Shown: one piece after another, positions 13,527 through 41,644 of the stretch
Position numbering within the stretch: position 1 is the first letter of the stretch
Layout of the letters: every line of letters starts with the position of its first letter
DNA from: a virus
IMG/VR virus record: IMGVR_UViG_3300028800_000163
Coordinates: 1 to 43,171 of that record
Length of the DNA: 43,171 nt
Strand: one strand, 5' to 3'
Program-made: the position numbers and the translations under genes
Notes under the pieces: generated by a model
What the model was told of the DNA's origin: nothing
Database searches by the model: none
The model's input: the letters and a program-made list of their open reading frames with translations, nothing else

Positions 13527-13536
13527 CTTGCAAGTA
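13525..13536. repeat. Perfect 12-bp palindrome between divergent -10 boxes
   Basis: TACTTGCAAGTA lies exactly between the minus-strand TATAAA and plus-strand TACAAT, overlapping each by two bases. A protein bound here would cover both promoters, so it is a candidate operator. Confidence 0.5.
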
Positions 13537-13540
13537 CAAT
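13535..13540 (+). promoter_or_regulatory. -10 box 6 nt before the UvsW-like helicase start
   Basis: G-TACAAT, then six bases, then ATG at 13547, with no Shine-Dalgarno site. The predicted transcript starts at or next to the ATG (leaderless). Confidence 0.6.
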
Positions 13541-13546
13541 CTCATA

Positions 13547-14938
13547 ATGTTGAGCCACGTCGCCGTCTATAACGATCATCTGGTCATCACTGATCCCTCG
13601 AACGAGCTGAAGGCTTTCGTTCAAGAGAATCTTACGTACGTTGATAAGTCAAAGCAATATCAGCTTAGACGTATGGGAAAGAACATCTGGCAGAGAAACT
13701 CTCCAGCGTATGCTCAACTCAAGAAAGAAGTAAACGGGTCTCTATATGAAGAGGTAGGCGATAAGCTCGTCATGAGCTCATGCTTCTTCAACTTGCTCAA
13801 GGATAAGTTTAATAGCTTGGGTGTCCTGGACCTGCGTGGTGAGACTGGAACTAAGATCTCATTGCCGTGGATCAACAAGCCATTTAACCTCAGAGACTAT
13901 CAAGAAGAAGCTGTAGACCTAATGCTCAATAGTCCTCGCGGCCTTATTAACCTTGCTACTGGGTTAGGTAAGACGCTTCTCGCAACACACTTTGTACAGC
14001 GATATAAACGAAGGGCTCTCATCGTGTGCCCAAGTGAGTCCGTTGCTAAACAGTTCTACGACCAATTCGTGTCGTGCTTTGGAAAGAATAGGGTGGGATT
14101 CTATGGAGGCGGAAAGAAAAACATATGCGACCTTACAATTGGTATTGCTGCTTCAGTCTCTAGGAATATCAAGGAGTTCCAAGATGCGGAGCTGGGTGTG
14201 GTCATACTTGACGAAACCCATCACACGCCCGCAACAACATTCTTTGATATTGCACAGGGACTTAGTAAGGTTGGTAAAATATTTGGGCTTACCGCAACCG
14301 ATTACCGTTCGGATGGCAAGGATGTAATGATTACTGCTGGGTGTGGACCTGTCCTCATCCGACGCGATATCAAATGGGGCGTTGCAAACGGTTGGCTCGC
14401 TAAGCCGTACTTCTTTGTTAGGCAGGTTCCAACCACCGGCAGAGATTATAAAGACGACAAGGGCAAGTCCTATAAGGAGCACGTTCTAAACAGCCCTGTG
14501 ATGCTCAAGCAGATCGAAGAAGATGCTCGGAAAATGATGGAGGCAGGTAAGTCTGTTCTCATCCTTGTAGATGAGGTTGCTCACGGAAAGCTTCTCAGTT
14601 TAGCTCTGAATATTCCTTTTGCTACCGGTATTGATGCTAAATCGCAGAGCTATGTAGATGATCTCAATGCAGGCAAAGTAAAGGGTCTAGTCGGAACTGA
14701 CGGCAAGATCGGTGAAGGGTCAGACACACAAAATGTTGACTGTCTGGTACTCGCAAACTTCGTAGCTTCTCGTGGCCCAGTTATCCAAGCTGTAGGACGC
14801 GGGTTGCGCAAACAAGGTACTAAAGACAAGTGCATCATCATAGATTACATCCCAATGGGATCAACTATGTTGAGTCGCCACGGGTTTGGTAGAGTTGAAT
14901 TCTACAAAGACATAACTGCAGATGTAAAGGTCGTATGA
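13547..14938 (+). CDS. UvsW-like superfamily 2 DNA helicase
   Basis: 463 residues. After an N-terminal domain of about 110 residues come the SF2 motifs: NLRDYQEEAV (Q-like), ATGLGKT (Walker A, about 137-143), DETH (about 222, motif II), LTATD (about 248, motif III) and QAVGRGLRK (about 414, motif VI). This matches T4 UvsW and related branch-migrating or R-loop-unwinding helicases in order and length. The start at 13547 is chosen because a -10 box lies 6 nt upstream; an open frame extends further 5' but runs through the promoter. It is divergent from the replication operon, and its stop overlaps the next ATG (ATGA). Confidence 0.87.
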   Translation: MLSHVAVYNDHLVITDPSNELKAFVQENLTYVDKSKQYQLRRMGKNIWQRNSPAYAQLKKEVNGSLYEEVGDKLVMSSCFFNLLKDKFNSLGVLDLRGETGTKISLPWINKPFNLRDYQEEAVDLMLNSPRGLINLATGLGKTLLATHFVQRYKRRALIVCPSESVAKQFYDQFVSCFGKNRVGFYGGGKKNICDLTIGIAASVSRNIKEFQDAELGVVILDETHHTPATTFFDIAQGLSKVGKIFGLTATDYRSDGKDVMITAGCGPVLIRRDIKWGVANGWLAKPYFFVRQVPTTGRDYKDDKGKSYKEHVLNSPVMLKQIEEDARKMMEAGKSVLILVDEVAHGKLLSLALNIPFATGIDAKSQSYVDDLNAGKVKGLVGTDGKIGEGSDTQNVDCLVLANFVASRGPVIQAVGRGLRKQGTKDKCIIIDYIPMGSTMLSRHGFGRVEFYKDITADVKVV

Positions 14939-15192
14939 ACTTTAAAGTACCAAAGCAACAAGTCATAGATAATGCAACGTATAGAGCTGAGTACGTCATG
15001 CGCCGCATGTGTGACGATATGCGATATCGCCACGATCCATACGCCCGTCACTTCGGTGATCACGGCGGCGACTTAGGTCACTCAGAGCATGCGGTTGTCA
15101 TGGCAATCAGAGAAGCTATCACGAGTATTGTAGACGACATCTACACTGATGAAGAGTTCGAGCAAGATCTAGGGTTGACCAAAAAGTCCTAA
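14935..15192 (+). CDS. Small histidine-rich unknown protein
   Basis: 85 residues with many His and Asp in the middle (RYRHDPYARHFGDHGGDLGH), which could bind a metal, and a helical acidic C-terminus. The ATG overlaps the helicase stop and AAAGG lies just upstream, so it is coupled to the helicase. The family is not recognised. Confidence 0.65.
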   Translation: MNFKVPKQQVIDNATYRAEYVMRRMCDDMRYRHDPYARHFGDHGGDLGHSEHAVVMAIREAITSIVDDIYTDEEFEQDLGLTKKS

Positions 15193-15197
15193 CGTAG

Positions 15198-15203
15198 TAT
15201 AAT
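15198..15203 (+). promoter_or_regulatory. GTATAAT box 6 nt before the M15 peptidase start
   Basis: TATAAT preceded by G; six bases separate it from ATG 15210. There is no Shine-Dalgarno site, so a leaderless mRNA is predicted. Confidence 0.65.
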
Positions 15204-15209
15204 AAGCTC

Positions 15210-15692
15210 ATGCAGAGCTTTCAACCGTCTGATAACATCTCAAAATACTTCACCTTCTCAGAAGTACTAGCGCTTCCTTCATGGAGTCGTCTGGGAAATG
15301 AGTCTGATGGACTCAACGATGACGTCATCGCTAGACTTAAATTTCTAGCTCAGAAGATGGACTTAGTTCGAACTTATTTTGGTAAACCGATACACGTACA
15401 CGTGTGCTGGAGACCGGTTAAGTATAACGCGCAGATCGGTGGTGCTAGGAACAGTGCCCACATCGCAGGTGTAAATGCTCAAGGTCTTCCCCTCCAATCA
15501 GGAGAGATGGAAGCTGCTATGGATTTCGACGTAGAAGGCATGTCCTGTATTGATGCTAAGAATATGATCCTACAGGACAATAAGCTGGAAGAATGGGGCA
15601 TGCGCATGGAGAACAATGGCGACAATGCCAACTGGGTTCATCTAGATACGCGCCAACCACTTCCCGGTCACGCACGATACTTTATTCCGTAG
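15210..15692 (+). CDS. M15-family peptidase, probable endolysin
   Basis: 160 residues. The M15 zinc site is visible: NSAHIAG (His84), EAAMDFD (Asp105) and NWVHLD (His144), with IHVHVCWRPVKYN before it. This family cleaves peptide links in peptidoglycan (carboxypeptidase or L,D-endopeptidase). There is no signal peptide, so it would need a holin or act inside the virion. It stands alone in a single-gene unit with its own promoter. It ends in TAG, which is relevant because the phage carries amber-reading tRNAs; readthrough would add 10 residues up to a second TAG inside the tRNA-like gene. Confidence 0.83.
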   Translation: MQSFQPSDNISKYFTFSEVLALPSWSRLGNESDGLNDDVIARLKFLAQKMDLVRTYFGKPIHVHVCWRPVKYNAQIGGARNSAHIAGVNAQGLPLQSGEMEAAMDFDVEGMSCIDAKNMILQDNKLEEWGMRMENNGDNANWVHLDTRQPLPGHARYFIP

Positions 15693-15700
15693 ATCTGTGG

Positions 15701-15706
15701 TATAAT
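15701..15706 (+). promoter_or_regulatory. Extended -10 promoter for the tRNA-like gene
   Basis: TGGTATAAT is an extended -10 element; the tRNA-like sequence begins 9 nt downstream at 15716. Confidence 0.6.
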
Positions 15707-15715
15707 CTTTCTCAA

Positions 15716-15796
15716 GGGGCGGTAGCTCAGCAACAGAGTGCCGTGGGCGTAAAAAACTCACGGAGGTCGGTGGTGCAAGTCCATCCCGCCCCACCA
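15716..15796 (+). tRNA. Non-canonical tRNA-like gene with enlarged anticodon arm
   Basis: A perfect 7-bp acceptor stem (GGGGCGG/CCGCCCC), an A discriminator and encoded CCA are present. The D stem GCTC/GAGT and T stem GGTGG/CCATC both form. The anticodon arm is six bases too long: CCGTGGG/CTCACGG (7 bp) closes a 9-nt loop, CGTAAAAAA. The D loop (AGCAACA) lacks the GG pair and the T loop (TGCAAGT) has G in place of T55, so the usual elbow contacts are missing. The anticodon cannot be assigned (AAA or TAA by alignment). It may be an unusual tRNA, a degenerate one, or a tRNA mimic. Confidence 0.6.
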
Positions 15797-15815
15797 TTTT
15801 AAGAAAGGAATCAAT

Positions 15816-15842
15816 ATGAACTAGGTTTGCAAGCCACCCTAA
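15816..15842 (+). other. Possible mini-ORF interrupted by an amber codon
   Basis: An AAAGGA ribosome site lies 6 nt before ATG-AAC-TAG, then five sense codons and TAA. If TAG is read it encodes MN-X-VCKPP. It lies just after the tRNA-like gene and upstream of the peptidyl-tRNA hydrolase. It may be chance, or a leader peptide. Confidence 0.25.
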
Positions 15843-15876
15843 ATCTCCAAGCTAAAGGCCACATAGATTTCAATAC

Positions 15877-15882
15877 TATAAA
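15877..15882 (+). promoter_or_regulatory. Possible -10 box before the peptidyl-tRNA hydrolase gene
   Basis: CTATAAA about 20 nt before ATG 15902, with GGAG in the leader. Weak evidence, position only. Confidence 0.3.
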
Positions 15883-15901
15883 CTTTACTCGGAGAATAAA
15901 C

Positions 15902-16462
15902 ATGAAAACACAGATTAGAGCTCTAAAGCTCAATTTAAAACAAATCGCTAAAGAAATCAGAAACCAGAAGAACGTTCGCAAGAAGTCGCATCCTCACCAC
16001 GATGTGTACAAAGGCGACAGCTATGTCCTTTACCTTAAGGATGAGTTTAGACACAAGCACGTTGCCTACTGTCTCGTAAGGGGTCGTTCCCTTGAGCAGA
16101 TAGATTCTGGTGTCAAGCTTGACATGGACCGTGTCAACTGGATCATCAAGACAATGCAGCCGGACTCGAAAGAAAAGCTGTACGTCGTCGTGAACGAAAC
16201 CCTAACCCCATCTCAGCAGGCAGTTCAATCTGCCCATGCCGTAGCAGAGTTCATGAGAAAGAATCCTCATACGCAGTGGAGTAACGGGTACTTGATCCTC
16301 CTCAAGAGCACGCCGGGATATGGTGGGAATATGAGGGGTTACAAGCTTGCAGGATCAGAGTATGCTGAATTCATCGAACCAGACCTAGAGAACAAGGTAA
16401 CGGCATATGCGTCCTTCGGACCTGAGGTCGAGCGCTTGATGAAGAATTACAAGCTGGTATAA
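15902..16462 (+). CDS. PTH2-type peptidyl-tRNA hydrolase with an extra N-terminal domain
   Basis: 186 residues. The C-terminal half matches the PTH2 family: KLYVVVNETLTPSQQAVQSA with HAVAEF following, WSNGYLILLK, then EFIEPDLENKVTAYASFG. PTH2 enzymes free peptides from stalled peptidyl-tRNA. The N-terminal 90 residues are basic, include HKHVAYCLVRGRSLEQIDSG, and look like a separate domain. The ATG at 15902 has GGAG 7 nt upstream and is preferred over an upstream in-frame TTG. It sits between a tRNA-like gene, a structured RNA and two amber-reading tRNAs, so a role in tRNA recycling in this island is a reasonable inference. Confidence 0.78.
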   Translation: MKTQIRALKLNLKQIAKEIRNQKNVRKKSHPHHDVYKGDSYVLYLKDEFRHKHVAYCLVRGRSLEQIDSGVKLDMDRVNWIIKTMQPDSKEKLYVVVNETLTPSQQAVQSAHAVAEFMRKNPHTQWSNGYLILLKSTPGYGGNMRGYKLAGSEYAEFIEPDLENKVTAYASFGPEVERLMKNYKLV

Positions 16463-16463
16463 G
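16458..16463 (+). promoter_or_regulatory. Possible promoter of the structured RNA
   Basis: G-TATAAG at the end of the hydrolase gene; the structured RNA begins 4-6 nt downstream, the right distance for its 5' end. Confidence 0.4.
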
Positions 16464-16467
16464 ATAA

Positions 16468-16628
16468 GTGTGCGGAGCATCTCGGATTGACGAGAAAACC
16501 GTTGGGAATGGATCTAATAGGTGCTGAACAACCCGAGGCTGGCTTAAGACGGCCGAGCAGAAATTTCGGGCAAGGCCTTTACGCCTAAGGTGGATCCAGT
16601 AGGTATTGCATACTCCTACCCCGCACAC
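16468..16628 (+). ncRNA. Compact multi-helix structured RNA of unknown class
   Basis: An 8-bp closing helix pairs GTGTGCGG (16468-16475) with CCGCACAC (16621-16628). Inside are TCTCG/CGAGA (16480-16484/16491-16495), TGGATC/GATCCA (16509-16514/16593-16598), CCCGA/TCGGG (16532-16536/16566-16570), GGCTG/CGGCC (16537-16541/16550-16554), AGGC/GCCT (16573-16576/16583-16586) and GTAGG/CCTAC (16599-16603/16615-16619). All are compatible in one fold. No gene of good quality covers it, and a promoter-like box precedes it. It is not a normal tRNA, tmRNA or RNase P RNA as far as I can tell. It may be a phage regulatory RNA, ribozyme or tRNA mimic. Confidence 0.6.
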
Positions 16629-16636
16629 ATAAATTT

Positions 16637-16765
16637 ATGAGAACATTCTATCTTCTAATCATCCTAGGTTTGGTCTGCTTCATGTCCTGGGAGTTCAACT
16701 TCTTCACCAGACATTACGCTTCTCTAGAAGCTAGATTTGATTATGTCTTCTCTCACTGTAAATAA
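16637..16765 (+). CDS. Possible tiny single-span membrane protein
   Basis: 42 residues: MRTFYLLIILGLVCFMSW gives one hydrophobic segment (about 4-18), followed by an aromatic and charged tail ending in FSHCK. It lies between the structured RNA and the first amber tRNA. There is no clear ribosome site, so expression is uncertain. A lysis-related or leader-like role cannot be shown. Confidence 0.35.
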   Translation: MRTFYLLIILGLVCFMSWEFNFFTRHYASLEARFDYVFSHCK

Positions 16766-16769
16766 CTTT

Positions 16770-16845
16770 GGTCTCATAGCTCAGTTGGTAGAGCGGTCGA
16801 TTCTAAATCGATCGGTCGTGGGTTCGAGCCCCACTGAGACCTCCA
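16770..16845 (+). tRNA. tRNA with CTA anticodon (amber suppressor type)
   Basis: A canonical 76-nt cloverleaf: acceptor GGTCTCA/TGAGACC, D arm GCTC-AGTTGGTA-GAGC, anticodon stem GTCGA/TCGAT with loop TTCTAAA, five-base variable loop, T arm GTGGG-TTCGAGC-CCCAC, T discriminator and encoded CCA. The anticodon at 16803-16805 is CTA, which pairs with UAG. A possible promoter is TTGATT, 16 nt, then TAAATA just upstream. The amino acid it carries cannot be read from the anticodon. Confidence 0.92.
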
Positions 16846-16848
16846 ATT

Positions 16849-16923
16849 GCCCCAGTAGCTCATTGGTCGAGCAGCTATTTCTAAAATACGCGGAAGCGGG
16901 TTCGATTCCTGTCTGGGGCGCCA
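16849..16923 (+). tRNA. Second tRNA with CTA anticodon, imperfect anticodon stem
   Basis: 75 nt: acceptor GCCCCAG/CTGGGGC, D arm GCTC-ATTGGTC-GAGC, T arm GCGGG-TTCGATT-CCTGT, G discriminator and encoded CCA. The loop TTCTAAA gives anticodon CTA (16881-16883). The anticodon stem GCTAT/ATACG has two mismatched outer pairs, or pairs fully if one C bulges (GCTAT with ATA-c-GC). It lies 3 nt after the first CTA tRNA and differs from it in acceptor and discriminator, so the two may carry different amino acids. Confidence 0.85.
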
Positions 16924-16927
16924 AACT

Positions 16928-17677
16928 TCAAGTAACCCACCATAGAGAGTATGGGTTTGCATTCAGCCCCTGTGGATGATAGTAGATTGCCGCTACATCC
17001 TTCATCTGATTAGCGTAGTCTTTCTTCAATCTTCTCAACCAGACCTTGTACGCTAGCCAGTTCAGGATACTTACCTTGCTGTTGCAGTTTCCCATATGCC
17101 AAGCCAATCTCCTAGCATCGGTGTTGCTCACATCTGTATTGATGCAGCTTACCAGCAAGCAGATAGCACTGTATACGAAGAACGGCAAGCCTAGCAGTCT
17201 TGCTAGGTAATGCAATGGATTCTTAAGACTCGGAAAGCTCGCAGCAATCATTGTTGCAACCAGCTGTAACTGTCTGAATAGAAACGAAGAACCCGTCATC
17301 TTACCTGGCTGGTTGTTATTTAAGAATCCAAAGTGTGAGATCAATGCCCACAAGAACTTTCTAGGGAGATCCGTGATTCCAAGCTCCATGCAGCCGTTGA
17401 GAACTCCGTAGTAGTCGTCTGGACCTTCTTGATCTGAGTCAGTTGGGACTGGGGCTCTGTTCAACATCCCGTTTGAGTCAACACATCCGCTCATGCGGGC
17501 ATGGTAATCCAGCTCGTCTGCAGGGGATAAGAGTCCCAGCTTCTTGAGCATTATGAAGTACTCACTCGTGTACATGGTCCCATTATCTGAACCTCTACCT
17601 GGGGAAGGTCCCATCGGTCCTGGCGCTAGTAGGTTGTTCCCGTCGACGTATGGCTGAAAGTCATCTTTAATACTCAT
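16928..17677 (-). CDS. Phage protein of unknown function, convergent with the tRNAs
   Basis: 249 residues. It has a recognisable layout seen in phage proteins: LSPADELDYHARMSGCVDSN, then DYYGVLNGCMELG, GFLNNNQPGK and FRQLQLVATMIAASFPS, with a hydrophobic stretch about 165-185 (LPFFVYSAICLLVSC) and a C-terminal YYHPQGLNANPYSLWW. I know the pattern as a phage protein without assigned function. It has its own promoter box 6 nt before its ATG. Its 3' end comes within 5 nt of the opposing tRNA, and no terminator separates them. Confidence 0.72.
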   Translation of the reverse strand: MSIKDDFQPYVDGNNLLAPGPMGPSPGRGSDNGTMYTSEYFIMLKKLGLLSPADELDYHARMSGCVDSNGMLNRAPVPTDSDQEGPDDYYGVLNGCMELGITDLPRKFLWALISHFGFLNNNQPGKMTGSSFLFRQLQLVATMIAASFPSLKNPLHYLARLLGLPFFVYSAICLLVSCINTDVSNTDARRLAWHMGNCNSKVSILNWLAYKVWLRRLKKDYANQMKDVAAIYYHPQGLNANPYSLWWVT

Positions 17678-17683
17678 AGAGTT

Positions 17684-17689
17684 ATATTA
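17684..17689 (-). promoter_or_regulatory. -10 box 6 nt before a minus-strand start
   Basis: On the minus strand TAATAT, six bases, then ATG 17677, with no Shine-Dalgarno site. It fits the leaderless spacing seen on the plus strand. Confidence 0.5.
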
Positions 17690-17700
17690 TCAGAAGGTGG

Positions 17701-17790
17701 GATAGGCTGCCCTATCTAATCCTGAGAGTTAGAGGGCTCTTCTTTCTTTTCTCGATCTTCGAAGAAGATCGACACGCGCTTCTGCGCGTG
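17701..17790. other. Three tandem hairpins in the divergent intergenic region
   Basis: GATAGG-CTGC-CCTATC (17701-17716), CGATCTTC-GAA-GAAGATCG (17753-17771) and CACGCGC-TTCT-GCGCGTG (17773-17790). All are perfect stems of 6-8 bp without T runs. They lie in a 262-nt gene-free gap between a minus-strand gene and the dUTPase. Possible roles are transcript ends or protein binding; the rest of the gap shows nothing I can support. Confidence 0.5.
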
Positions 17791-17925
17791 AGGGTTCACT
17801 TAGGTTTTTGTAAGTATAGAAAGAATGGTTTGACTAGCTAGAACCCTTTTATGATACCCGCGACGAGCAACTTTTTAACTTAGTGACGAAAATAATCTTC
17901 AACTCACCATGCTGGTCTGGTTTTG

Positions 17926-17931: not shown

Positions 17932-17939
17932 TGCTACAT

Positions 17940-18458: not shown

Positions 18459-18871
18459 TCGTCGTAGATCCGCGACTCAACAAGGTTGAGATGCAGCACT
18501 GGTTGGTCCAGTATCTAGCGTCATACGCTACGATGGATTATGATATGCCCATGACAGGTAAAGAGATTACACTGTTTGATATCGCTGTCACGACAACCGG
18601 TCAATGTAAGGTTGAACTCTTCGAGAATAATCACGGTTATCAGCTTAAAGCGCTAGCAACCCTTCAAACAGGTCAGAATCAGAGTACGTTCGTGTACAGT
18701 CTTGGTATGGTTTTGCCAACGTACTCAACCGTCAAGGTGAGAGTGACCAACTTTGAGAAGTGGCCATATGACATAGCCATCATGCTTCGATACTCCTCTG
18801 AGGATCTGTACGAGAAGTACAACAGGGAGTTCACAAGAGCATTGGAGGCCAAGCTTGAGCGCGAAACCTGA
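18455..18871 (+). CDS. Unknown protein downstream of dUTPase
   Basis: 138 residues starting at GTG, which overlaps the dUTPase stop (GTGA). The body is beta-rich (KEITLFDIAVTTTGQCKVEL, then FVYSLGMVLPTYSTVKVRV) and the C-terminus is a charged helix. No cysteine motif or membrane segment. Possibly a small structural protein; the family is not recognised. Confidence 0.65.
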   Translation: MIVVDPRLNKVEMQHWLVQYLASYATMDYDMPMTGKEITLFDIAVTTTGQCKVELFENNHGYQLKALATLQTGQNQSTFVYSLGMVLPTYSTVKVRVTNFEKWPYDIAIMLRYSSEDLYEKYNREFTRALEAKLERET

Positions 18872-19302: not shown

Positions 19303-19308
19303 TATAAT
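19303..19308 (+). promoter_or_regulatory. GTATAAT box with a short hairpin leader
   Basis: TATAAT preceded by G. The predicted leader begins with GCTCC-AGACA-GGAGC (19309-19323), a hairpin that contains the AGGAG ribosome site of the TTG start at 19329. Ribosome access may therefore depend on this hairpin. Confidence 0.55.
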
Positions 19309-19328
19309 GCTCCAGACAGGAGCATCGA

Positions 19329-25091: not shown

Positions 25092-25097
25092 TAAAAT
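25092..25097 (+). promoter_or_regulatory. TAAAAT box 6 nt before a start codon
   Basis: TAAAAT, six bases, ATG 25104, no Shine-Dalgarno at normal distance; it overlaps the end of the gp46-like gene. Confidence 0.5.
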
Positions 25098-25103: not shown

Positions 25104-25412
25104 ATGCAGGACCTAATCGACAAGATTGAAGAGCTAAGGAAGAACTTAGCTGCAATGAAGAAGCCAAAAGAAGGGCCTCTAGTACCTGCAATCAAGCAGC
25201 CCTCTATAAAGCCACTCTCCATGCCGGCGGCTGGTACGGGTGGTGCACCTAAGAAGATTCCTGGTGTTGCACCTCCAAGCAACAAGGATCCTAGGCAGGT
25301 TGCAGCTCAACTCAAGAATCCTAGACCTAAGAAGCCTAAGATCGAGATGCTTAAGTTCGAGAAGAACGGCCAGTGGTCGCTGAGCAAGTTCGGCGAGAAC
25401 AATTCAGTATAA
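25104..25412 (+). CDS. Proline/lysine-rich disordered protein
   Basis: 102 residues. A short N-terminal helix (MQDLIDKIEELRKNLAAMKK) is followed by a low-complexity basic stretch rich in P, K and A, and a C-terminal KFEKNGQWSLSKFGE. It could be a DNA-associated or scaffold-like protein; nothing more can be said. Leaderless start predicted. Confidence 0.6.
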   Translation: MQDLIDKIEELRKNLAAMKKPKEGPLVPAIKQPSIKPLSMPAAGTGGAPKKIPGVAPPSNKDPRQVAAQLKNPRPKKPKIEMLKFEKNGQWSLSKFGENNSV

Positions 25413-25413
25413 T
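25408..25413 (+). promoter_or_regulatory. GTATAAT box 6 nt before a GTG start
   Basis: TATAAT preceded by G, six bases, then GTG 25420, with no ribosome site. It overlaps the previous stop codon. Confidence 0.62.
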
Positions 25414-27157: not shown

Positions 27158-27184
27158 GCAAAGACTAACAACTTAATCCAACGG

Positions 27185-27216
27185 ACGGGCATGGGAAACT
27201 GTGCCCGTTTCTTTTT
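27185..27216 (+). terminator. Rho-independent terminator before the DNA polymerase
   Basis: The stem ACGGGCA/TGCCCGT (27185-27191/27202-27208) is followed by TTTCTTTTT. It ends the structural-protein transcript, and the polymerase promoter box follows at once. Confidence 0.85.
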
Positions 27217-27217: not shown

Positions 27218-27223
27218 TATAAT
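27218..27223 (+). promoter_or_regulatory. GTATAAT box 6 nt before the DNA polymerase start
   Basis: TATAAT preceded by TG; six bases, then ATG 27230. No ribosome site. It directly follows the terminator T run, so the polymerase transcript must begin here. Confidence 0.7.
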
Positions 27224-27229: not shown

Positions 27230-30200
27230 ATGCCAAGATTCAAGGAACCTGCACAGCTACACAATCACTCAAAGTATTCTCTGCTCGACGCAGTGCCTTC
27301 ACCTGAAGAGTGGGTTGGTTGGTGTCTTGAGTCTGGTACCCCTGCTCTTGCTGTCACCGATCACGGTACAGCTATCTCTATGTATGACGCTTTGAAGGCG
27401 AAAGAGTTCATTAAGAACTACAACAAAGAGCATAAGACTAATCACCCTCTAGACGCGGTCACTCTGATTCCGGCCGTTGAGCTGTACGTGAAGCTCAATG
27501 CTGAGGACAAGAGCCACTATCACATCACAGCATGGGCAGCAAGCACAGAGGGATATCACAACCTCATGAAGCTGTCGTCGATCGCGTATCACGATACAGT
27601 TTCTTACTTCGGCTCTGTCAAGGCTCGTGTAACCTTTGATCAGATCAGACAGCATAAGGCTGGCATCAAGTTTGGAACTGGCTGTATCGCAGGTCCTATC
27701 GGCAAGGCCTTCTGGGATGGCGACAAGAAGCTGGCTGAAGAACGTTTCTTAATGTACAAGGAGCTGTTTGGTGATGATCTTTATATTGAGTTTCATTGCA
27801 ATGATGTCACTCATAATTTTAATAAGACTACTGGCTCTTTCGATCCTATTCCGGCTGACGAGTGCTCCTGCGACGGAAACAAGCAAAAAGGATACAACCT
27901 CTTCTTAAGAGACATGGTTGACAAGTACGGTGGAAAGTGCATCCCAGTTACGGATGCCCACTTCATCATGCCTGAAGACAAGGTCATCCAAGATTGTCTA
28001 CTCAAGAACGGTAACTCGAACGGATGGTACTTTTATGAGTCATATCACCAGCTCAGAGCAGAGCAGATGTTCGACAAGCTTAGAGTACATCTCGGCGATT
28101 GGCTCACAGAAGATACTTTCAAAGTATGGATCGAGAATACTTACGAGGTCGCAGAAGCTGCAAAGAATATCTCTGTTAAGTTTGATTATCACCTCCCGCG
28201 GGTTGTCATACCAGAGCACATTAAGGCTAAGACTAGTGATTATGACACTCAAACTTATTACTACATGATGGAGCTTATCCACGGGCATGGACGCTGGAAT
28301 AACGATCCAGTCTACATCGCTCGTTTCAAGCAGGAGCTCAACGTTATTAAGGATAATGAGACTCTTAACTTCATACCGTACTTCCTAGTCTACGAGGATA
28401 TCGGTAGGTTCGCCAGGTCTCAGGGCATCTTGCAGAACATCGCTCGTGGATCTGCTGGTGGTTCACTTATCAGCTACTATCTAAAGATTATTCATGTCGA
28501 CCCTATCAAGGCTAACCTACCTTTCGAGCGATTCCTCTCTCATGCTCGTATTAGAGCTGGATCCTTTCCAGATATCGATGCAGATATTGGTGACCGTGCA
28601 AGGTCACTGGTTATGAACTATCTTCGTACGAAGTATGGGGTTGGGTTTGCCCAGATCTCCACATTCCAGAAGATGAAGACTAAGAATGCCATCAAAGATG
28701 CCATGTTTGCTATCTATGGCAGGTCTAGGAATGACGTAGAGATCAAGATCATCTGCGACTCGATCCCAGATTCCCCTCAGGGTGTGGACGAGTACGATTT
28801 CTTGTACGGTGGAACCGACAAGGAAGGCAACTATACCGCAGGCCAGGTGGAGATCAATAAGAATCTAGCCAACTTCTTCTCTACGTATCCTGATGTAGAG
28901 AAGATGGTTAAGAAGCTCATTGGCACGATCCGAGGCTGGTCTCGCCACGCTTCTGCGTTCGTTATCTCAACATTGGATCTATCAGCTGAGCGTGTTCCAA
29001 CGATGGTGATGAAGGATAAGGAGCTAGGTGATATCGTCTGCACTCAGTATGACGCAGACATGGTAACAGCTTGCCAACTTGTTAAAGCCGACATCCTTGG
29101 AATTAAGACGCTCACAGCGGTATCCGACTGCGTGGCTCTTGTCAAGGATAAGGTTGACTACCTCGCTGAGGAAGCTGGTATGCCGTACATTTATAGGCTG
29201 CCAGAAGACGACGGTGTGTATGCCGACTTCTACAACAAGGATACAGATTCTTCGTTCCAGTTTAACACGGAGTTAATCAAAGGCTACATTCAGGAGTTCT
29301 GTCCTATCAAGCGCGGAGACCTGTCAGCTATGACGGCCCTTTGTCGCCCTGGTGCTCTTGATGCCCCACTCTATAATACGACTGCCGCTCAGTACTACAT
29401 GGACATTCGTAATGGGAAGAGGGACATTGAATATCTTCACGAAGATCTAAAACCTATCCTCGAGTTCAGTAACGGCGTCTTCGTCTATCAAGAAGAAGTC
29501 ATGAGATTCCTGGTGGAGGTTGCAGGCTATTCTTGGGAAGAGTCTGACATCATCCGTGCTGCTATCGCCAAGAAGAAGCACGACGTCATCATGAATACGT
29601 TCGATAGGATTCGTAATGCGTGCAAAGCGCGAGGTTGGACTGATGAAGCTGTAGAGACAATCTGTCAGCAGATTCAAGCTTTCTCTCGCTACTCGTTCAA
29701 CAAATCCCACTCCCATGCGTACGGCGAGCTGGGATACATCACAATGTACCTGAAGCACCATCACCCTCTAGAGTGGTGGGCAAGCACGCTGAACGTCCAT
29801 AACGGCGATGAGGCTAAGGTTCGTCAGTATATGTCTAGACTTGGTAACTTAGTGAGACCTCCATCTCTCAAGTATCCTACGGACAAGTTTGCGGTACGAG
29901 AGATTAACGGGGAAAGGTATATCGTTACTCCGTTGTCAGCCATTAAAGGCGTTGGTCCTGCGGTCGTGAAAGAGTTGTGCAATAAAGGTCCATTCCCTAC
30001 GCTGGAAGACTTCGTAAAGCGAATCGACCACGCTAAGGTGAACTCTGGCGGTATCTCTTACCTCATCAAGGGAAGAGCAGCCGATGACATGATGGACATG
30101 TCTATACCTGATTACAGCGAGCGTAGAAAAGCATTCATTGAAACCTACAAGAAGCTGAGAGGTAAAGAGATCAAGCTTCAACCTGAAGTGTTCGAGTTCG

Positions 30201-30667
30201 ATCCACTGTCAATCTTCCTAATGGAGAAGGAATACAACCAGGCTTTCAACAAGAACCTTCTCTCTGACAAGGGAGTTGTGGACATCATTAAGAGCAGGTG
30301 GCCAGCTCTCTCCGAGACTGGTCGAGCAGGTGTTCCCCTCATGATGGGTGGAGATACACCTATCTTAGCTACTATCAAGGTTGCAGAGGGTCTCATCAAG
30401 AAGGAGTTCGTTAAGGAAGTAGGGATGATCCTGCTATACGAATCGTCAGCCTTCACTAAAGGCGTATCCAAGAAGAGTGGTAGACCTTGGCAGAAGGTCT
30501 CGGTATACCTCTCTGACGGTTTCACGACGATTGAGTGCACAAACTGGGATGCCAACGCCGCGCTTGGTTGGGCTAAGAACACTATAGTTTATGTCAGAGG
30601 AAAGCTGAAGCCAGGGTGGAAGACTCCTGTTAGCTTACAGATTGAAGAGATCGAGAAAGTAGAATAG
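27230..30667 (+). CDS. dnaE: DNA polymerase III alpha subunit (family C replicative polymerase)
   Basis: 1145 residues. The N-terminal PHP domain shows LHNHSKYSLLD (10-20) and VTDHGTA (about 41). The palm carries PDIDADIGDRAR (about 447) with the two catalytic Asp, and the third Asp lies in VKADILGIKTLT. Fingers motifs include YQEEVMRF and FNKSHSHAYGELGY, and a C-terminal OB-like domain ends GWKTPVSLQIEEIEKVE. The start at 27230 is set by the promoter box; an upstream in-frame ATG at 27191 lies inside the terminator. The gene ends in TAG, and a second TAG is the only stop before the in-frame next gene. Confidence 0.93.
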   Translation: MPRFKEPAQLHNHSKYSLLDAVPSPEEWVGWCLESGTPALAVTDHGTAISMYDALKAKEFIKNYNKEHKTNHPLDAVTLIPAVELYVKLNAEDKSHYHITAWAASTEGYHNLMKLSSIAYHDTVSYFGSVKARVTFDQIRQHKAGIKFGTGCIAGPIGKAFWDGDKKLAEERFLMYKELFGDDLYIEFHCNDVTHNFNKTTGSFDPIPADECSCDGNKQKGYNLFLRDMVDKYGGKCIPVTDAHFIMPEDKVIQDCLLKNGNSNGWYFYESYHQLRAEQMFDKLRVHLGDWLTEDTFKVWIENTYEVAEAAKNISVKFDYHLPRVVIPEHIKAKTSDYDTQTYYYMMELIHGHGRWNNDPVYIARFKQELNVIKDNETLNFIPYFLVYEDIGRFARSQGILQNIARGSAGGSLISYYLKIIHVDPIKANLPFERFLSHARIRAGSFPDIDADIGDRARSLVMNYLRTKYGVGFAQISTFQKMKTKNAIKDAMFAIYGRSRNDVEIKIICDSIPDSPQGVDEYDFLYGGTDKEGNYTAGQVEINKNLANFFSTYPDVEKMVKKLIGTIRGWSRHASAFVISTLDLSAERVPTMVMKDKELGDIVCTQYDADMVTACQLVKADILGIKTLTAVSDCVALVKDKVDYLAEEAGMPYIYRLPEDDGVYADFYNKDTDSSFQFNTELIKGYIQEFCPIKRGDLSAMTALCRPGALDAPLYNTTAAQYYMDIRNGKRDIEYLHEDLKPILEFSNGVFVYQEEVMRFLVEVAGYSWEESDIIRAAIAKKKHDVIMNTFDRIRNACKARGWTDEAVETICQQIQAFSRYSFNKSHSHAYGELGYITMYLKHHHPLEWWASTLNVHNGDEAKVRQYMSRLGNLVRPPSLKYPTDKFAVREINGERYIVTPLSAIKGVGPAVVKELCNKGPFPTLEDFVKRIDHAKVNSGGISYLIKGRAADDMMDMSIPDYSERRKAFIETYKKLRGKEIKLQPEVFEFDPLSIFLMEKEYNQAFNKNLLSDKGVVDIIKSRWPALSETGRAGVPLMMGGDTPILATIKVAEGLIKKEFVKEVGMILLYESSAFTKGVSKKSGRPWQKVSVYLSDGFTTIECTNWDANAALGWAKNTIVYVRGKLKPGWKTPVSLQIEEIEKVE

Positions 30668-31343: not shown

Positions 31344-31497
31344 TACTTTACTTAATTTTCTGCTTCTTGTTTTTGTGTATGCTGGGGTTCAACACTTCAG
31401 TCATCACAACTGTATTGCTATAGCCACGGTGAGTGCCTTGCTATTTTTAAAGACGCAACCAACGATACAGATTTCTAAAAAACGTGGTATAATATAA
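31333..31497 (+). CDS. Possible small two-span membrane protein
   Basis: 54 residues: MSSSTLLNFLLLVFVYAGVQ gives one hydrophobic helix, and CIAIATVSALLFL a second, with a basic tail (ISKKRGII). It overlaps the zinc protein end and its stop overlaps the next promoter box. There is no clear ribosome site, so it is uncertain. Holin-like size and layout, but no other support. Confidence 0.4.
   Translation: MSSSTLLNFLLLVFVYAGVQHFSHHNCIAIATVSALLFLKTQPTIQISKKRGII
31488..31493 (+). promoter_or_regulatory. Extended -10 promoter of the ssDNA-binding protein
   Basis: TGGTATAAT. It gives a leader of about 40 nt with a palindrome at 31504-31513 (CCAATATTGG) and GGAG before ATG 31542. T4 gp32 represses its own mRNA through its leader, so a similar control is conceivable. 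Confidence 0.65.
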
Positions 31498-31541
31498 GCA
31501 CGCCAATATTGGTGTTTAACTGTAACCTATGGAGAAAATCT

Positions 31542-34714: not shown

Positions 34715-35076
34715 CAGACGGCCAAAAGATCAGTTACGATACCGGTGGTTGTATGGTATCTATGAGCATGATTGATGACATCGCGCTCATGTACGCTAAG
34801 ATGAGACCTAACGATCTACCGACAGATGTGTACATGCATGTGACGGTTTATACTGAGTTCATGAGAATGTTGCAGCATAGAATAACGTTGACAACTCCCT
34901 CTGATGGCGTTCAGAATCTAATAATTCATACCGGGTGTGGGCCGCTGACTGCCCACGCGATGCCATATGCATTTGATAAGTTTGTAATGTTGATAGGTAA
35001 GCAAGAAGACTACGATAGATACTTCATCGATGAAGTTTTCGAGGACATAGTTTTAAAGGATTGTGAACGCGAGTGA
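34693..35076 (+). CDS. Unknown protein between two phosphoesterases
   Basis: 127 residues, overlapping the upstream gene by 22 nt and its stop overlapping the gp47-like GTG start. Alpha/beta with several methionines and cysteines (MVSMSMIDDIALMYAKMRP) and an acidic end. The family is not recognised. Confidence 0.62.
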   Translation: MLIEYYLADGQKISYDTGGCMVSMSMIDDIALMYAKMRPNDLPTDVYMHVTVYTEFMRMLQHRITLTTPSDGVQNLIIHTGCGPLTAHAMPYAFDKFVMLIGKQEDYDRYFIDEVFEDIVLKDCERE

Positions 35077-36100: not shown

Positions 36101-36106
36101 TATAAT
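36101..36106 (+). promoter_or_regulatory. Extended -10 box before a leaderless mini-ORF
   Basis: TGGTATAAT, six bases, ATG 36113. The first start codon opens a 7-codon ORF whose end contains the AAGGAG site of the next gene. Confidence 0.6.
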
Positions 36107-36112
36107 AGTTAT

Positions 36113-36136
36113 ATGGTGGATAGCACCAAGGAGTAG
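36113..36136 (+). CDS. Leaderless 7-codon mini-ORF (possible leader peptide)
   Basis: ATG 36113 encodes MVDSTKE and stops at TAG (36134-36136). It starts where the transcript is expected to begin. Its last codons (AAG GAG) are the ribosome site of the gene starting at GTG 36139. Ribosomes translating it would cover that site, so it may control the downstream gene. Confidence 0.4.
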   Translation: MVDSTKE

Positions 36137-36138
36137 AT

Positions 36139-36588
36139 GTGGATCTTCAGAAGTTAACAGAGATGGTCGATCAGCAAAGGTGGTTGTTAAACAACGGCCT
36201 AGTGCCTGATTCTGCCAAGAATCAACTGTTCTTCTATGGATCTATCGTCCACGCTGAGGTGCAAGCCGTTGAAGTTAAGATTCGTCCTGAGGACAAGTTC
36301 GTAGACTATACGATCTATCTTCAGAAGGGTCTCATAGCTAAAATGGCTAAGTATCAAAGGCTATCCACCGCCACATCGTTATTCGGCATGTGGCGATTCA
36401 AGCGCTTCTTGAAGAAGGAGGGTAGCTTAGATTTTCAAAACATGCTGAGTGCGTTCGTTAGGGACTATTGTGGACCGAGTTGGTCTACAAAGGTAACCGT
36501 ATTGGACTTCGATGTGTATGTAGACAACATTGGAGTTGAAGGTGAGCCCGACGGAGCAAGTCAGCAATCTAATAAATTGCCTGACTAA
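36139..36588 (+). CDS. Unknown protein upstream of the sigma-like gene
   Basis: 149 residues starting at GTG with AAGGAG 5 nt upstream. Mixed fold with AEVQAVEVKIRPEDKFVDYT in the first half and VTVLDFDVYVDNIGVEGE near the end. No motif recognised. Its end overlaps the next gene. Confidence 0.65.
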   Translation: MDLQKLTEMVDQQRWLLNNGLVPDSAKNQLFFYGSIVHAEVQAVEVKIRPEDKFVDYTIYLQKGLIAKMAKYQRLSTATSLFGMWRFKRFLKKEGSLDFQNMLSAFVRDYCGPSWSTKVTVLDFDVYVDNIGVEGEPDGASQQSNKLPD

Positions 36589-36964: not shown

Positions 36965-37541
36965 AGAAGAGACCAAGCTTGCCGAGAAGTACCTAAGAAA
37001 GCACAAGACTGCTGGTGCACTTAAGGAACTTGAAGCTGCTAAACTCTTTGAACTATACCTTCTAGGCGAATCGCTACCTAAGATTGCTCAACAGTTTCCT
37101 CAATATCACCTGGGCCAGATTGCCCTTACCGCGTCGTTGCGCGGATGGGCATACGATCGAGACAAGATGATGCACACTCTTCAAGACAGAGTTCGTGCTA
37201 AGGTTGTTAAGTCTGTTCTTGAGCAAGTTGACTTTCTTACAGCTATGATGTCTGTGGCTAATGCAGAGCACCTTGAGAAGATGATCAAGTACTGTCAGGA
37301 TCCTATTAACAATCCTAAGCCTGACATGCGCGTTACCAATATTAAAGAATATAAAGATGTAGCCGAGACCCTTTACAAGATCGTCTCCGGCGCAACGCCT
37401 GGAAGCAGGGACAAGCAGCGTTCACCTATGTTTGATGCGCTCACCCCTCCGCCAGCTAAGAAGGAAGAAGCTCCTGCGGAAGAGGATGCAAGCACTATCC
37501 TAGCCCAGGTAGTCGGAAACAATGAGCAAGAGCAAAACTAA
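36915..37541 (+). CDS. Probable terminase small subunit
   Basis: 208 residues immediately before and overlapping the large terminase. The first half contains a helix-turn-helix-like segment (LFELYLLGESLPKIAQQF), as in small terminases that bind the packaging site. The C-terminus is a flexible, acidic P/E/A-rich tail. No direct family match is visible; the call rests on position, size and HTH. Confidence 0.62.
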   Translation: MALKKRLTEQERYGLSEEETKLAEKYLRKHKTAGALKELEAAKLFELYLLGESLPKIAQQFPQYHLGQIALTASLRGWAYDRDKMMHTLQDRVRAKVVKSVLEQVDFLTAMMSVANAEHLEKMIKYCQDPINNPKPDMRVTNIKEYKDVAETLYKIVSGATPGSRDKQRSPMFDALTPPPAKKEEAPAEEDASTILAQVVGNNEQEQN

Positions 37542-39477
37542 CTCAACACTAACATTTGATCAGCAGAGGAAGCTTCTGTTGACGCCTTGTCGTTCAAGAC
37601 AAGAGCTCAAGAACTGGATCAAGTATCATTTGGGACCTAGCGGCATCACAGAACTTCCTGATGTCACTGTATCTCGTTACTCGGACACGAACCCACTTGA
37701 TGTTATCTGGGAAGTGTATCGTATCTGTGTTCTACAGCAGAATCCGGACAACGTTCAAGAGCTTCTGTTCGTCGCTGGTCGAGGTTCGGGAAAGACCCTC
37801 GGGATGGCTATCGCCGAGCTTATGATCCTGTTGCATGACAAGCGCGATGTCGTTCACGTTGGAGCCATTCAGAACCAAGCTGAACGTTGCTATGCCTATC
37901 AGAAGAACTTTCTCTACAACCGTAAACTGAAGACATTAGTTATGCCATCAGATCTCCCAGAAGATGAGAGAATCTTGGAGAAGGCTAACATGTCCAAGTC
38001 CATCTTCAACCTAGGCAATGATAAGGTCACACTTGAAGTCTTACCTTGCACGTTAAAGGCATGTAATGGTCCTCACGTTCCTCTAGTCGTTGTCGATGAG
38101 ATCGATACGGTTTCCGGTGAAGGCGTTAAGGCATTTAAAGAGATTTCCGGTATGTTAGACTCCAAGGGCGGCAAGAAGGCCCTTCGCGTAGGTATCTCCA
38201 CTCGTAAGTCTCGCTACGGTTTAATGAACCAGAAGCTAGAGGAGATGGAAGCAACCCCCGACAAGACTCGTGTCGTCCGTCGTTGGACCGCATTTGAGTT
38301 CACCGAGCGCTGCCCTGATAGTAGGTCCGGCATTCTACCTGTTGATTTGTATGTCAATCAGGATAGGATGGAAGTTCTCACCCAAGAGCAGTTTGATAAG
38401 AAGGATAAGCAGAAGCAGAAGGAGTTCCAGCCTCACAAAGGCCTCAACGGCTGCGTCAAGTGTCCACTTTTCTCTATCTGCCTCACCGATGCTAAGTTTC
38501 AGACATCAAAGAGCCCAATGTTGAAGACCCTCGATGAGATGGTTCAGAAGGTTAGATCTGAGGGTCCTGACTGGGCCTTAGCTCAGCTTATGAACCTGAA
38601 GCCATCAGTGGAAGGCATCATCTTCAGGGAGTTCGAGGAGAAGATTCACATCAGGTCCTGGAACGAGATGTGGAAGACCTTGGTTGGCAAGGAGTTCCCA
38701 GGTGAGTGTACTCACGACATGTTTGTTAAGAAGTGCCACGAGCTGAACATCCCATGCTACGCAGGTATCGACTGGGGATTCTCGGCACCTAACACTGTCG
38801 TATTCTTCTTCGTTGACTCTAGAGAGAACATCTACGTTGTCAAGTGCGACGGTATGACCCATATCTCTGCTCCGACATGGATTCACCATATTAAGACTAA
38901 GTACCACAACATGTATCGCTGTCAGCTGTACGTTCCTGATGCCGCCGACCAAGGCTCCATCCAAGAAATGCAGAAGGCTGGTCTTCCTGTGGCCAACCAA
39001 CCAGATAAAGGCGCAGTTAACACAGGTATTCAGGTCATCAAGAAGTTCTTGAAGATGCCTGGCTCTACCGAAGCCAAGTTATTCTTAGCTAGAGACTATT
39101 GCACACCTCTGGTGAGAGAGTTCTTGCTCTACCACTATAAGGTAGACGCAGCAGGTCTCATCACCGATGATCCTGATACTGAGCATGACCACTGGATCGA
39201 TGCTCTCAGGTATCCGATGACGCTTCTTTTCGGGAAGTCACAGATCATATTAGGTGGCGGCTTGGCGGACCAGACGGCCGGATTGACAGATGGCTTTGGT
39301 AACTTCAACAGGATGCCGTCACCTACGGAATATGCCCTTACACAAGGCATCAAGATGAATGAAACAGAACCCGACAGATCTAAGTTGGGCAAGATTGGTA
39401 AGGCCTCAGAGTTAGATGACTCGGGCAACGATGATGACTCTAGCGGCGGGGCCGGTGGCTTCATCTGGAGTATATAG
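37522..39477 (+). CDS. terL: Terminase large subunit
   Basis: 651 residues. The N-terminal ATPase has AGRGSGKT (about 86-93, Walker A) and PLVVVDEIDT (about 189-195, Walker B). A cysteine cluster CVKCPLFSIC lies at about 311-320. The C-terminal RNase-H-like nuclease has GIDWGFS (about 415) and DHWIDALRY (about 556). It powers DNA packaging into the head and cuts the concatemer. It starts with a weak GGA site inside the small-subunit gene and ends in TAG. Confidence 0.92.
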   Translation: MSKSKTNSTLTFDQQRKLLLTPCRSRQELKNWIKYHLGPSGITELPDVTVSRYSDTNPLDVIWEVYRICVLQQNPDNVQELLFVAGRGSGKTLGMAIAELMILLHDKRDVVHVGAIQNQAERCYAYQKNFLYNRKLKTLVMPSDLPEDERILEKANMSKSIFNLGNDKVTLEVLPCTLKACNGPHVPLVVVDEIDTVSGEGVKAFKEISGMLDSKGGKKALRVGISTRKSRYGLMNQKLEEMEATPDKTRVVRRWTAFEFTERCPDSRSGILPVDLYVNQDRMEVLTQEQFDKKDKQKQKEFQPHKGLNGCVKCPLFSICLTDAKFQTSKSPMLKTLDEMVQKVRSEGPDWALAQLMNLKPSVEGIIFREFEEKIHIRSWNEMWKTLVGKEFPGECTHDMFVKKCHELNIPCYAGIDWGFSAPNTVVFFFVDSRENIYVVKCDGMTHISAPTWIHHIKTKYHNMYRCQLYVPDAADQGSIQEMQKAGLPVANQPDKGAVNTGIQVIKKFLKMPGSTEAKLFLARDYCTPLVREFLLYHYKVDAAGLITDDPDTEHDHWIDALRYPMTLLFGKSQIILGGGLADQTAGLTDGFGNFNRMPSPTEYALTQGIKMNETEPDRSKLGKIGKASELDDSGNDDDSSGGAGGFIWSI

Positions 39478-39500
39478 TACACTCTTAAGTCGCTAGAAGG

Positions 39501-39506
39501 TATAAT
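39501..39506 (+). promoter_or_regulatory. GTATAAT box 6 nt before the portal start
   Basis: TATAAT preceded by G, six bases, ATG 39513, no ribosome site. A portal promoter separate from the terminase unit. Confidence 0.65.
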
Positions 39507-39512
39507 CATTGC

Positions 39513-41492
39513 ATGGCGTGGTATGACGACTGGTTAAAGAATAGGGTCAGAGGCGAGATTAGTGAGCTATTGAAGGCTGACGGCATCTCTTCGCCAATGG
39601 CAGCTCCAGGGACCCAAGATGTGGTCAGTGGAGACGGCTTACCCGACGTTCCAGAAACTGGCCATGACGCTAGTCAGCAGATCGGCCGCAAGGCTTATGT
39701 CGATGATCCTTATTTTGATCTCATCGGCAGCCAAGTCAACTATAAATTCAAGCTAACACGCATCTCTAACAAGACCCTTAAAGAGGTCTCTGTAAGAGAC
39801 TGGCTCATCTCAGCCATCATCCAATGCCGCGTTGATACCCTTCTCAGGTTCTCGCGCATCGAGCATAGACGCCATGAGATGGGTTTCAGGGTTGTCAAGA
39901 AGGATAACTCTGCTCACTACTCTCCTGAGGAAAAGGAAGAGATAGCAGCGATCGAAGACTTTATCTATCACTGTGGTCGCAAGGAAGGCACGCCAGCCGA
40001 CGATAAGAGACTCTTCGGTGAGTTCTTGAAGTGTATCGGCCGTGACGCCCTCACATTCGGTCACGTTGCAATTGAAAAAGTTAAGACGAGAGCTGGTGGC
40101 TTACACAGGTTCCGCCCTCTGCCTGCGGAATCTATATATCTTATCAATAAGAACCTCTCGAAGGAGCAAGTGAGCTCCAACGCGATGAAGAATTATCAGC
40201 TCACTCGCCCAAAGAGCGACAACGATCCTAAGACTGAACAGGTCGTTAATGAGGTCGAGAACGATTTCATCAAGTACGTTCAGATCTCGTACGATAACAG
40301 ACCCCTTGCCACGTTCGGTGACGAGGACTGTATCTTCAAGCTGTTCAACCCTCAGAACTTCGCAGACTCGATGGGATATTGCTATTCACCCCTTGAATTA
40401 GCTATCATCAACATCACGAATCACTTGAACGTTGAAAACTACAATGCAAACTTCTTCACGCACGGCTATGCAGCCCGCGGCGTTCTCCACCTAAAGGGAA
40501 CTGTAACGCAGCAGCAGCTTGCCAACTTCCGTCGTACTTTCTATAACAGTATTACAGGTCACCAAAACGCATGGAGAACCCCAATCGTGGCGGGTCTCGA
40601 TGAAGTTCAATGGGTACCAATGTCTGCTAACGCCAAGGAGATGGAGTACCTCAACTACAACAACCATCTTATGCGTATTCTTTGCTCTCAGTTCCAGATC
40701 GACCCGGTCGAGTTGGGATTGGACTACCTCATCAGTGCAACCGGCCGCGGTTCTCCGATGCAGCAGTCTAACAATGAGTACAAGATCACCTACTCCCGTG
40801 AGCGTGGCTTAGTACCCCTCTTGATGTTCGTTGAAGATCTTATCAACTGCGATGTTCTTCCTGCTATCGACAAGAGCTTGGCTGGCAAATATAAGTTCGT
40901 GTTCACCGGCATGACCGAAGAGACTCCGCAAACTGAGATTGCTCAGATGCAAGCTGAGATGACTGTATGGAAGTCGATGAACGACCTCCTTCAGCAGGCT
41001 CAGAAGGATAAGATCGGTGAAGCCGCTGCAGACCTTCCCCTTAACCAGGCTTTCTGGGCACTGGTTGAAAAGAACTACACTCGTGGGGAGATTCGCGAGT
41101 TCTTCTTCGGCGATAAGGGTGCAAGCACTAAACGCGAGCTTCAATACATCCCTGGCGACCAGTCATTCATGGCATGGCAGCAGATGTTAGCAGCTCTTGA
41201 AGCTGCTGAAGAGCAGAAGAAGCAGATGGCTCAGCAGCAAGATGCTGCAACTCAAGAAGCTCAGATGAAGATGGCTCAAGAGAAGCAGAAGCATGACCAT
41301 GCTGAAGCTGCTCATGGTCGCGATAAAGAGAAGCACAACCTTGAGATGGAGCAGATCAAAGCTAAGGCTGCAAGTGATGCAGTTCAGAGCGGTCTCAAAG
41401 GTACTGCTAAACAGTTTGGTGCATCTAAGGCTGGCAATATAGGTGGTCAGGTTACAGCCAACCCCATCAACAAGCTAGATGGATCAGAATAA
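39513..41492 (+). CDS. Portal protein
   Basis: 659 residues. Position after the terminase, size and motifs fit a phage portal: SVRDWLISAIIQCRVDTL, GHVAIEKVKTRAGGLHRFR, FNPQNFADSMGYCYSPLELA, and the ring region with SRERGLVPLLMFVEDL. The C-terminal 100 residues are a long charged Q/K/E-rich coil, perhaps the barrel or crown. It forms the dodecameric DNA gate of the head. The start lacks a Shine-Dalgarno site and fits leaderless expression. Confidence 0.88.
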   Translation: MAWYDDWLKNRVRGEISELLKADGISSPMAAPGTQDVVSGDGLPDVPETGHDASQQIGRKAYVDDPYFDLIGSQVNYKFKLTRISNKTLKEVSVRDWLISAIIQCRVDTLLRFSRIEHRRHEMGFRVVKKDNSAHYSPEEKEEIAAIEDFIYHCGRKEGTPADDKRLFGEFLKCIGRDALTFGHVAIEKVKTRAGGLHRFRPLPAESIYLINKNLSKEQVSSNAMKNYQLTRPKSDNDPKTEQVVNEVENDFIKYVQISYDNRPLATFGDEDCIFKLFNPQNFADSMGYCYSPLELAIINITNHLNVENYNANFFTHGYAARGVLHLKGTVTQQQLANFRRTFYNSITGHQNAWRTPIVAGLDEVQWVPMSANAKEMEYLNYNNHLMRILCSQFQIDPVELGLDYLISATGRGSPMQQSNNEYKITYSRERGLVPLLMFVEDLINCDVLPAIDKSLAGKYKFVFTGMTEETPQTEIAQMQAEMTVWKSMNDLLQQAQKDKIGEAAADLPLNQAFWALVEKNYTRGEIREFFFGDKGASTKRELQYIPGDQSFMAWQQMLAALEAAEEQKKQMAQQQDAATQEAQMKMAQEKQKHDHAEAAHGRDKEKHNLEMEQIKAKAASDAVQSGLKGTAKQFGASKAGNIGGQVTANPINKLDGSE

Positions 41493-41643
41493 CCTTTACT
41501 TCAGGGCGGATACCGGCGAGGTTATGACTAAAGAGAAGAGAAACTCGGTCATGATGCTAACTAAGATCCTGTATAGGCTCGACATAATCACTGAAGAACA
41601 AGCCCTCGATATAGCGACCAAGTTCCATATCTTGTTTGTATAA
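41479..41643 (+). CDS. Small protein of unknown function after the portal
   Basis: 54 residues overlapping the portal end by 14 nt. Starts MDQNNLYFRADTGEVMTKEK and ends KFHILFV. Helical and basic. Its stop overlaps the next promoter box. No family recognised. Confidence 0.55.
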   Translation: MDQNNLYFRADTGEVMTKEKRNSVMMLTKILYRLDIITEEQALDIATKFHILFV

Positions 41644-41644
41644 T
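41639..41644 (+). promoter_or_regulatory. GTATAAT box before the kinase-fusion gene
   Basis: TATAAT preceded by TG, 10 nt before ATG 41655. This leaves at most a 3-4 nt leader and no ribosome site. Confidence 0.6.

Follow-up and report, generated by a model that had tools for sequence, protein, structure and literature searches.

Promoters without a -35 element that give leaderless mRNAs are a known but uncommon arrangement in phages, best documented in those of Thermus. Most middle and late mRNAs of the Thermus thermophilus phage phiYS40 are reported to be leaderless (PMC3594737), the middle and late promoters of P23-45 belong to the extended -10 class (PMC7403470), and Thermus phages shift their host towards such promoters or mRNAs (PMC7403470, PMC3594737). 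On the bacterial side, the "-10 motif adjacent to the ORF" (open reading frame) of Deinococcota, TANNNT and usually without a -35, drives leaderless transcription with specific spacing needs (PMC12340547), and leaderless genes with a Pribnow-like box that begins some 12 bp ahead of the translation start have been predicted in Actinobacteria, Acidobacteria, delta-proteobacteria and others (PMC3160421). Here we describe a TATAAT-like box placed exactly six nucleotides (nt) before start codons in a 43,171-nt stretch of viral DNA (IMG/VR record IMGVR_UViG_3300028800_000163, positions 1 to 43,171; hereafter the window) and in most of its relatives, an unrelated and uncultured phage clade in which the arrangement is new.

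The window is a piece of a large tailed phage with genes for replication, recombination, GroEL, terminase and portal, and its viral-contig relatives reach 167-177 kb. The nearest isolated phage found by portal protein coverage is Myxococcus phage Mx1 (OR576727; 30.5% identity), which resembles the window's phage in its GroEL, SbcCD, DnaE, SSB, RecA, TerL and portal but differs in its annotated sigma factor, its GC content of 55.5% and the lack of the six-nt excess described below. Like the members of the window's clade, phiYS40 is a large lytic-type phage with the same excess; however, the window's portal, DnaE and TerL all lacked a match when its first 100 kb were searched by tblastn, and in the window's clade, unlike in phiYS40 and P23-45, a G at -13 is commoner than the full TG-N and genes led by a Shine-Dalgarno (SD) site are common. 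The Deinococcota motif precedes bacterial host genes, about 30% of ORFs, whereas the stricter TATAAT studied here precedes phage genes. The predictions across other bacterial phyla likewise concern host chromosomes, with no phage clade described there.

A six-nucleotide spacing between box and start codon

The sequence-only reading of the window had listed eight places where a -10-like hexamer is followed by exactly six bases and then ATG or GTG. All eight read as described: GTACAAT before 13547, GTATAAT before 15210, 25420, 27230, 36113 and 39513, TG-A-TAATAT before 17677 on the minus strand and TG-A-TAAAAT before 25104. Seven of these starts open genes; the eighth, 36113, does not and is taken up below with the leadered genes.

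Spacings were counted by simple ORF calling on frames of at least 100 amino acids, with each ATG or GTG within the first 30 codons taken as a possible start and TATAAT-like boxes (at least 5/6 matches, TA...T) tallied at every distance. In the window six box/start pairs stand at six nt, where the other spacings average 0.39 (Poisson p 3.6e-6), and GTATAAT itself occurs 11 times against 3.95 expected, a number that none of 100 shuffles reached. The same spike is present in G001 (14 vs 1.35), G002 (15 vs 1.87), G003 (21 vs 2.04), G004 (17 vs 3.09), G005 (9 vs 1.17), G008 (11 vs 1.30), G010 (8 vs 0.65), G011 (5 vs 0.39), G012 (8 vs 0.74) and G014 (12 vs 1.00), with p from 5.5e-5 to 9e-15; it is weaker in G013 (p 0.0024) and G015 (p 0.0035) and marginal in G007 (p 0.07). 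The same count found no spike in the more distant relatives G006 and G016 (56% portal identity), in a 50-kb segment of SPO1 or in Mx1, the last also with the looser TANNNT pattern. When the hexamer was permuted (20 permutations), TATAAT alone peaked at six nt, with 56 pairs against 10 for the next permutation, and it gave only 2 pairs at five nt and 9 at seven. The first 100 kb of phiYS40 yielded 9 pairs at six nt against 1.48 elsewhere (18 with TANNNT); since this phage is reported to make leaderless mRNAs, the spike is what such a phage shows. Thus, the six-nt spacing is real in the window and most of its relatives, and the genome-wide count, on which the sequence-only reading could have failed had six nt been no commoner than chance, leaves that reading standing.

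In the genomes showing the spike the box class accounts for about 5-21% of the ORFs that reach 100 amino acids, and it spans mixed functions: matches in PHROGs include helicase, SbcC (in G003), ribonucleotide reductase, head proteins, head proteases, endolysins, HNH nucleases, kinases and unknowns. The class is thus not confined to key proteins such as polymerase, portal, helicase and lysin, and TerL, RecA, GroEL and SSB lack the six-nt box in nearly all relatives examined.

Sequence context of the box genes

Bacterial transcription favors a pyrimidine at -1 and a purine at +1. A pyrimidine stands at -1 in 85 of 121 box starts, as against 51% of internal ATGs (p 4e-5) and 49% of SD-led starts (p 2e-5). 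SD motifs, which the sequence-only reading had found missing from the box starts, precede 6-24% of box genes, a background level when set beside the 10-17% of internal ATGs, and 48-62% of other genes (window and G001-G005). Its remark that there is no clear -35 also holds statistically, with 13 promoters showing at least 4/6 matches against 18.5 expected; 15210, which has TTGACC, is a possible exception. The boxes do not fit the canonical sigma-70 layout, in which TTGACA lies about 17 nt upstream of the -10. A G occupies -13 in 72% of the box promoters and TG, an extended -10 feature, occupies -15/-14 in 20 of 86.

Box genes tend to stand first in transcription units: 13 of 86 overlap or abut the upstream gene compared with 332 of 855 others, 26 of 86 are divergent from it compared with 144 of 855, and a terminator lies upstream of 7 of 86 compared with 5 of 855. 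At the DnaE-type polymerase gene an intrinsic terminator directly adjoins the box. Hairpin, T tract, box and ATG are kept in about 16-17 relatives, and the stem arms differ widely while retaining their pairing (covariation); in about 16 relatives the end of the terminator is separated from the ATG by about 13 nt. Transcripts arriving from upstream should stop there, and the leader of the polymerase mRNA would therefore be limited to a few bases. DnaE relatives without the box mostly have an SD before the ATG (e.g. L125, L126 and G005).

Individual sites are conserved to differing degrees. The box is retained six nt before the start of the helicase orthologs of G001, G002, G003 and G004, and orthologs of 17677 have TACAAT at six nt in G001 and TACTAT in L112. 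At the same six nt it precedes the small protein of 25104 in 12 of 20 distinct relatives, the box columns holding 1.02 bit against 0.33-0.45 in the flanks, the HNH endonuclease of 25420 in 11 of 31, with the GTG kept, and the portal gene in 29 of 70 distinct relatives; some other portal relatives have an SD-led TTG or ATG start in its place. An AAGG before the portal gene was rejected as an SD, as its place at -16 to -13 is too distant from the start and falls within the promoter; a contingency table for the portal, in which a simple SD flag had counted this AAGG too often, was set aside. The orthologs of the kinase-like gene 41655, whose spacing in the window is longer, have the box at six nt in L003 and L016. 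The endolysin of G003 (L155:14541-15074) belongs to another family than that of the window, lies near the helicase gene and also has a box at six nt, as if the promoter had outlasted a swap of the gene behind it.

Table 1. Promoter boxes and associated elements in the window
Feature	Position	Strand	Context
-10 box TACAAT, G at -13	13535..13540	+	6 nt 5' of ATG 13547, DNA helicase gene 13547-14938
-10 box TATAAT (GTATAAT)	15198..15203	+	6 nt 5' of ATG 15210, M15-peptidase endolysin 15210-15692
-10-like box TAATAT after TGA (extended -10)	17684..17689	-	6 nt 5' of ATG 17677, protein 17677-16928
Box, as in the leaderless class	19303..19308	+	Leadered promoter of methyltransferase-like gene TTG 19329; AGGAG in leader
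-10 box TAAAAT after TGA	25092..25097	+	6 nt 5' of ATG 25104, small protein
-10 box TATAAT (GTATAAT)	25408..25413	+	6 nt 5' of GTG 25420, HNH endonuclease
Intrinsic terminator, 12-bp stem and T tract	27183..27216	+	-18.7 kcal/mol, z -4.0; adjoins GTATAAT
-10 box TATAAT, G at -13	27218..27223	+	6 nt 5' of ATG 27230, DNA polymerase III alpha-like gene 27230-30667
Box TGG-TATAAT	31488..31493	+	Leadered promoter of SSB-like gene ATG 31542; SD GGAG
Box TATAAT after TGG	36101..36106	+	Promoter of a gene that has a leader; 36113 is no leaderless start
Short leader hairpin TGGTG GATAG CACCA	36114..36128	+	Retained, with sequence changes, in many relatives
SD AAGGAG	36128..36133	+	Serves GTG 36139, at which gene 36139-36588 begins
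-10 box TATAAT, G at -13	39501..39506	+	6 nt 5' of ATG 39513, portal gene
Box TATAAT	41639..41644	+	10 nt 5' of ATG 41655, deoxynucleoside monophosphate (dNMP)/thymidylate kinase-like; very short leader, without SD

Proposed mechanism

Taken together, the spacing, the phiYS40 control, the -1 pyrimidine, the terminators, the loss of SD sites and the position at the head of units give good support to the proposal of a phage-wide promoter class tied to leaderless mRNAs. We put the probability that these are -35-less, -10-type promoters giving leaderless mRNAs and read by a host-type RNA polymerase at roughly 0.88. The boxes would act as -10 elements for a sigma-A/sigma-70-like holoenzyme, with G(-13)TATAAT recognized without -35 contacts; with six bases in between, +1 would then fall on the first base of the start codon and the mRNA would be leaderless. 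The ribosome would take the 5'-terminal AUG or GUG, with initiation probably of the 70S type, and genes reached by read-through, or having the box further away, would use ordinary SD sites. The polymerase is probably the host's, because the box fits the consensus, no multisubunit phage polymerase was found and no sigma region 2 was matched in G001, G002, G003 or G005. The polymerase search covered six long relatives, with its positive controls matched, the window being a 43-kb fragment; a search for single-subunit RNA polymerase was uninformative, as its control gave no match.

The sequence itself shows the fixed and conserved spacing, the absence of -35 and SD sites, the pyrimidine at -1 and the module of terminator, box and ATG; the 5' ends, the polymerase, the host and the mode of initiation are inferred. 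Several points weigh against this reading. The relatives are not fully independent of one another; G010, for one, matches part of G003, with the same motif sites and equal portal and TerL identity, and the two do not count separately. The -10 score lets in a few chance boxes, such as that at 18551, and the TTGACC of 15210, 17 nt upstream of its box, is a plausible -35. The SD loss follows in part from the box occupying that region, the seven upstream terminators include orthologs, and the 13 box genes that overlap or abut an upstream gene could also be translated from a longer mRNA.

Alternative explanations

The alternative that survives best, though we consider it unlikely, keeps the box as a promoter but has the working mRNAs begin further upstream or read through, with translation from a leader and the six nt reflecting compact packing. 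Those same 13 genes fit this explanation, as do the orthologs with an SD-led start at the same place; however, packing predicts a spread of spacings rather than a spike at six with few pairs at five and seven, SD motifs are at background in the box genes, the pyrimidine at -1 is specific to them, and in the 16 or so relatives with the DnaE terminator only about 13 nt remain ahead of the ATG.

Less likely again is that a sigma factor or an RNA polymerase of the phages' own reads these promoters. Sigma-70 region 2 is matched in G006 (34860-35069, E 1e-24) and, weakly, in G004, and a sigma factor is annotated in Mx1; yet G006 and Mx1 are without the spike, whereas region 2 has no match in G001, G002, G003 and G005, where the spike is present, and the search of the six long relatives returned no multisubunit polymerase.

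It is very unlikely that the hexamer is no promoter but an A/T-rich signal by which the mRNA directs the start of translation, of the kind used in SD-poor bacteria. The fixed distance to the start codon would suit such a signal, as would the single match to a metagenome-assembled genome (MAG), binned as Saprospiraceae, whose phylum is SD-poor. Against it, the exact order TATAAT is enriched and its permutations are not, the same box recurs further upstream of leadered SD genes, it comes directly after terminators, and these phages use SD sites widely. The MAG itself has little motif excess (15 vs 6 in the control); this and the wide use of SD sites are why we do not accept Saprospiraceae as the host from one contig.

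That the pattern is chance or a gene-calling artifact, conceivable because TATAAT is frequent in A+T-rich DNA and the choice of start is ambiguous, is excluded for practical purposes by the per-genome p-values, the permutation control, the phages without a spike and the phiYS40 positive control.

Implications

If the boxes are leaderless promoters, phage-wide leaderless expression would reach beyond the Thermus phages and include an unrelated, uncultivated clade that is found in many metagenomes. The six-nt spike would offer a sequence test usable on assemblies without a cultured host, the possible hosts would be narrowed to bacteria with efficient translation of leaderless mRNAs, and it would help in correcting the start codons and gene calls of such genomes. 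Orthologs with a leaderless start in some genomes and an SD-led one in others would form a natural experiment. We raise only tentatively, and with doubt, the idea that the phages favor the class during infection, for example through displacement of sigma region 4, which would leave only -35-less promoters active, or through a shift of initiation factors towards leaderless mRNAs, so that the leaderless genes form a coordinated regulon; if true, there would be such a regulon in a lineage unrelated to the Thermus phages.

Leadered genes and other features

The sequence-only reading was right that 19329 and 31542 are leadered genes with the same box further away. ATG 36113, which it had placed among the leaderless starts, belongs with them and was rejected as a leaderless gene start: the frame it opens is stopped by a TAG after only 7 codons, the gene begins at GTG 36139, and relatives keep the SD of this GTG and mostly lack the ATG. 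The hairpin region just 5' of that SD (36114-36133) is a possible translational regulator. In the leader of 19329 a hairpin, GCTCC...GGAGC (19309-19328), would mask the AGGAG, and similar ones occur in several relatives. Between the promoter and the SD of the SSB-like gene (31494-31541) lies a conserved GCCAAT..TGGC, possibly an autoregulatory site.

Two adjacent CUA (amber) tRNA genes (16770-16845 and 16849-16923, plus strand) both score above the Rfam tRNA threshold, and G001, G002, G003 and G004 also have one or two CUA tRNAs. We do not claim genetic recoding by amber suppressor tRNAs from these; TAG is the stop in about 8-16% of genes. A candidate tRNA-Phe(aaa) at 15716 is without Rfam support and was not used as evidence. 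Finally, L170 (G005) carries a predicted tmRNA-like gene at 2544-2692.

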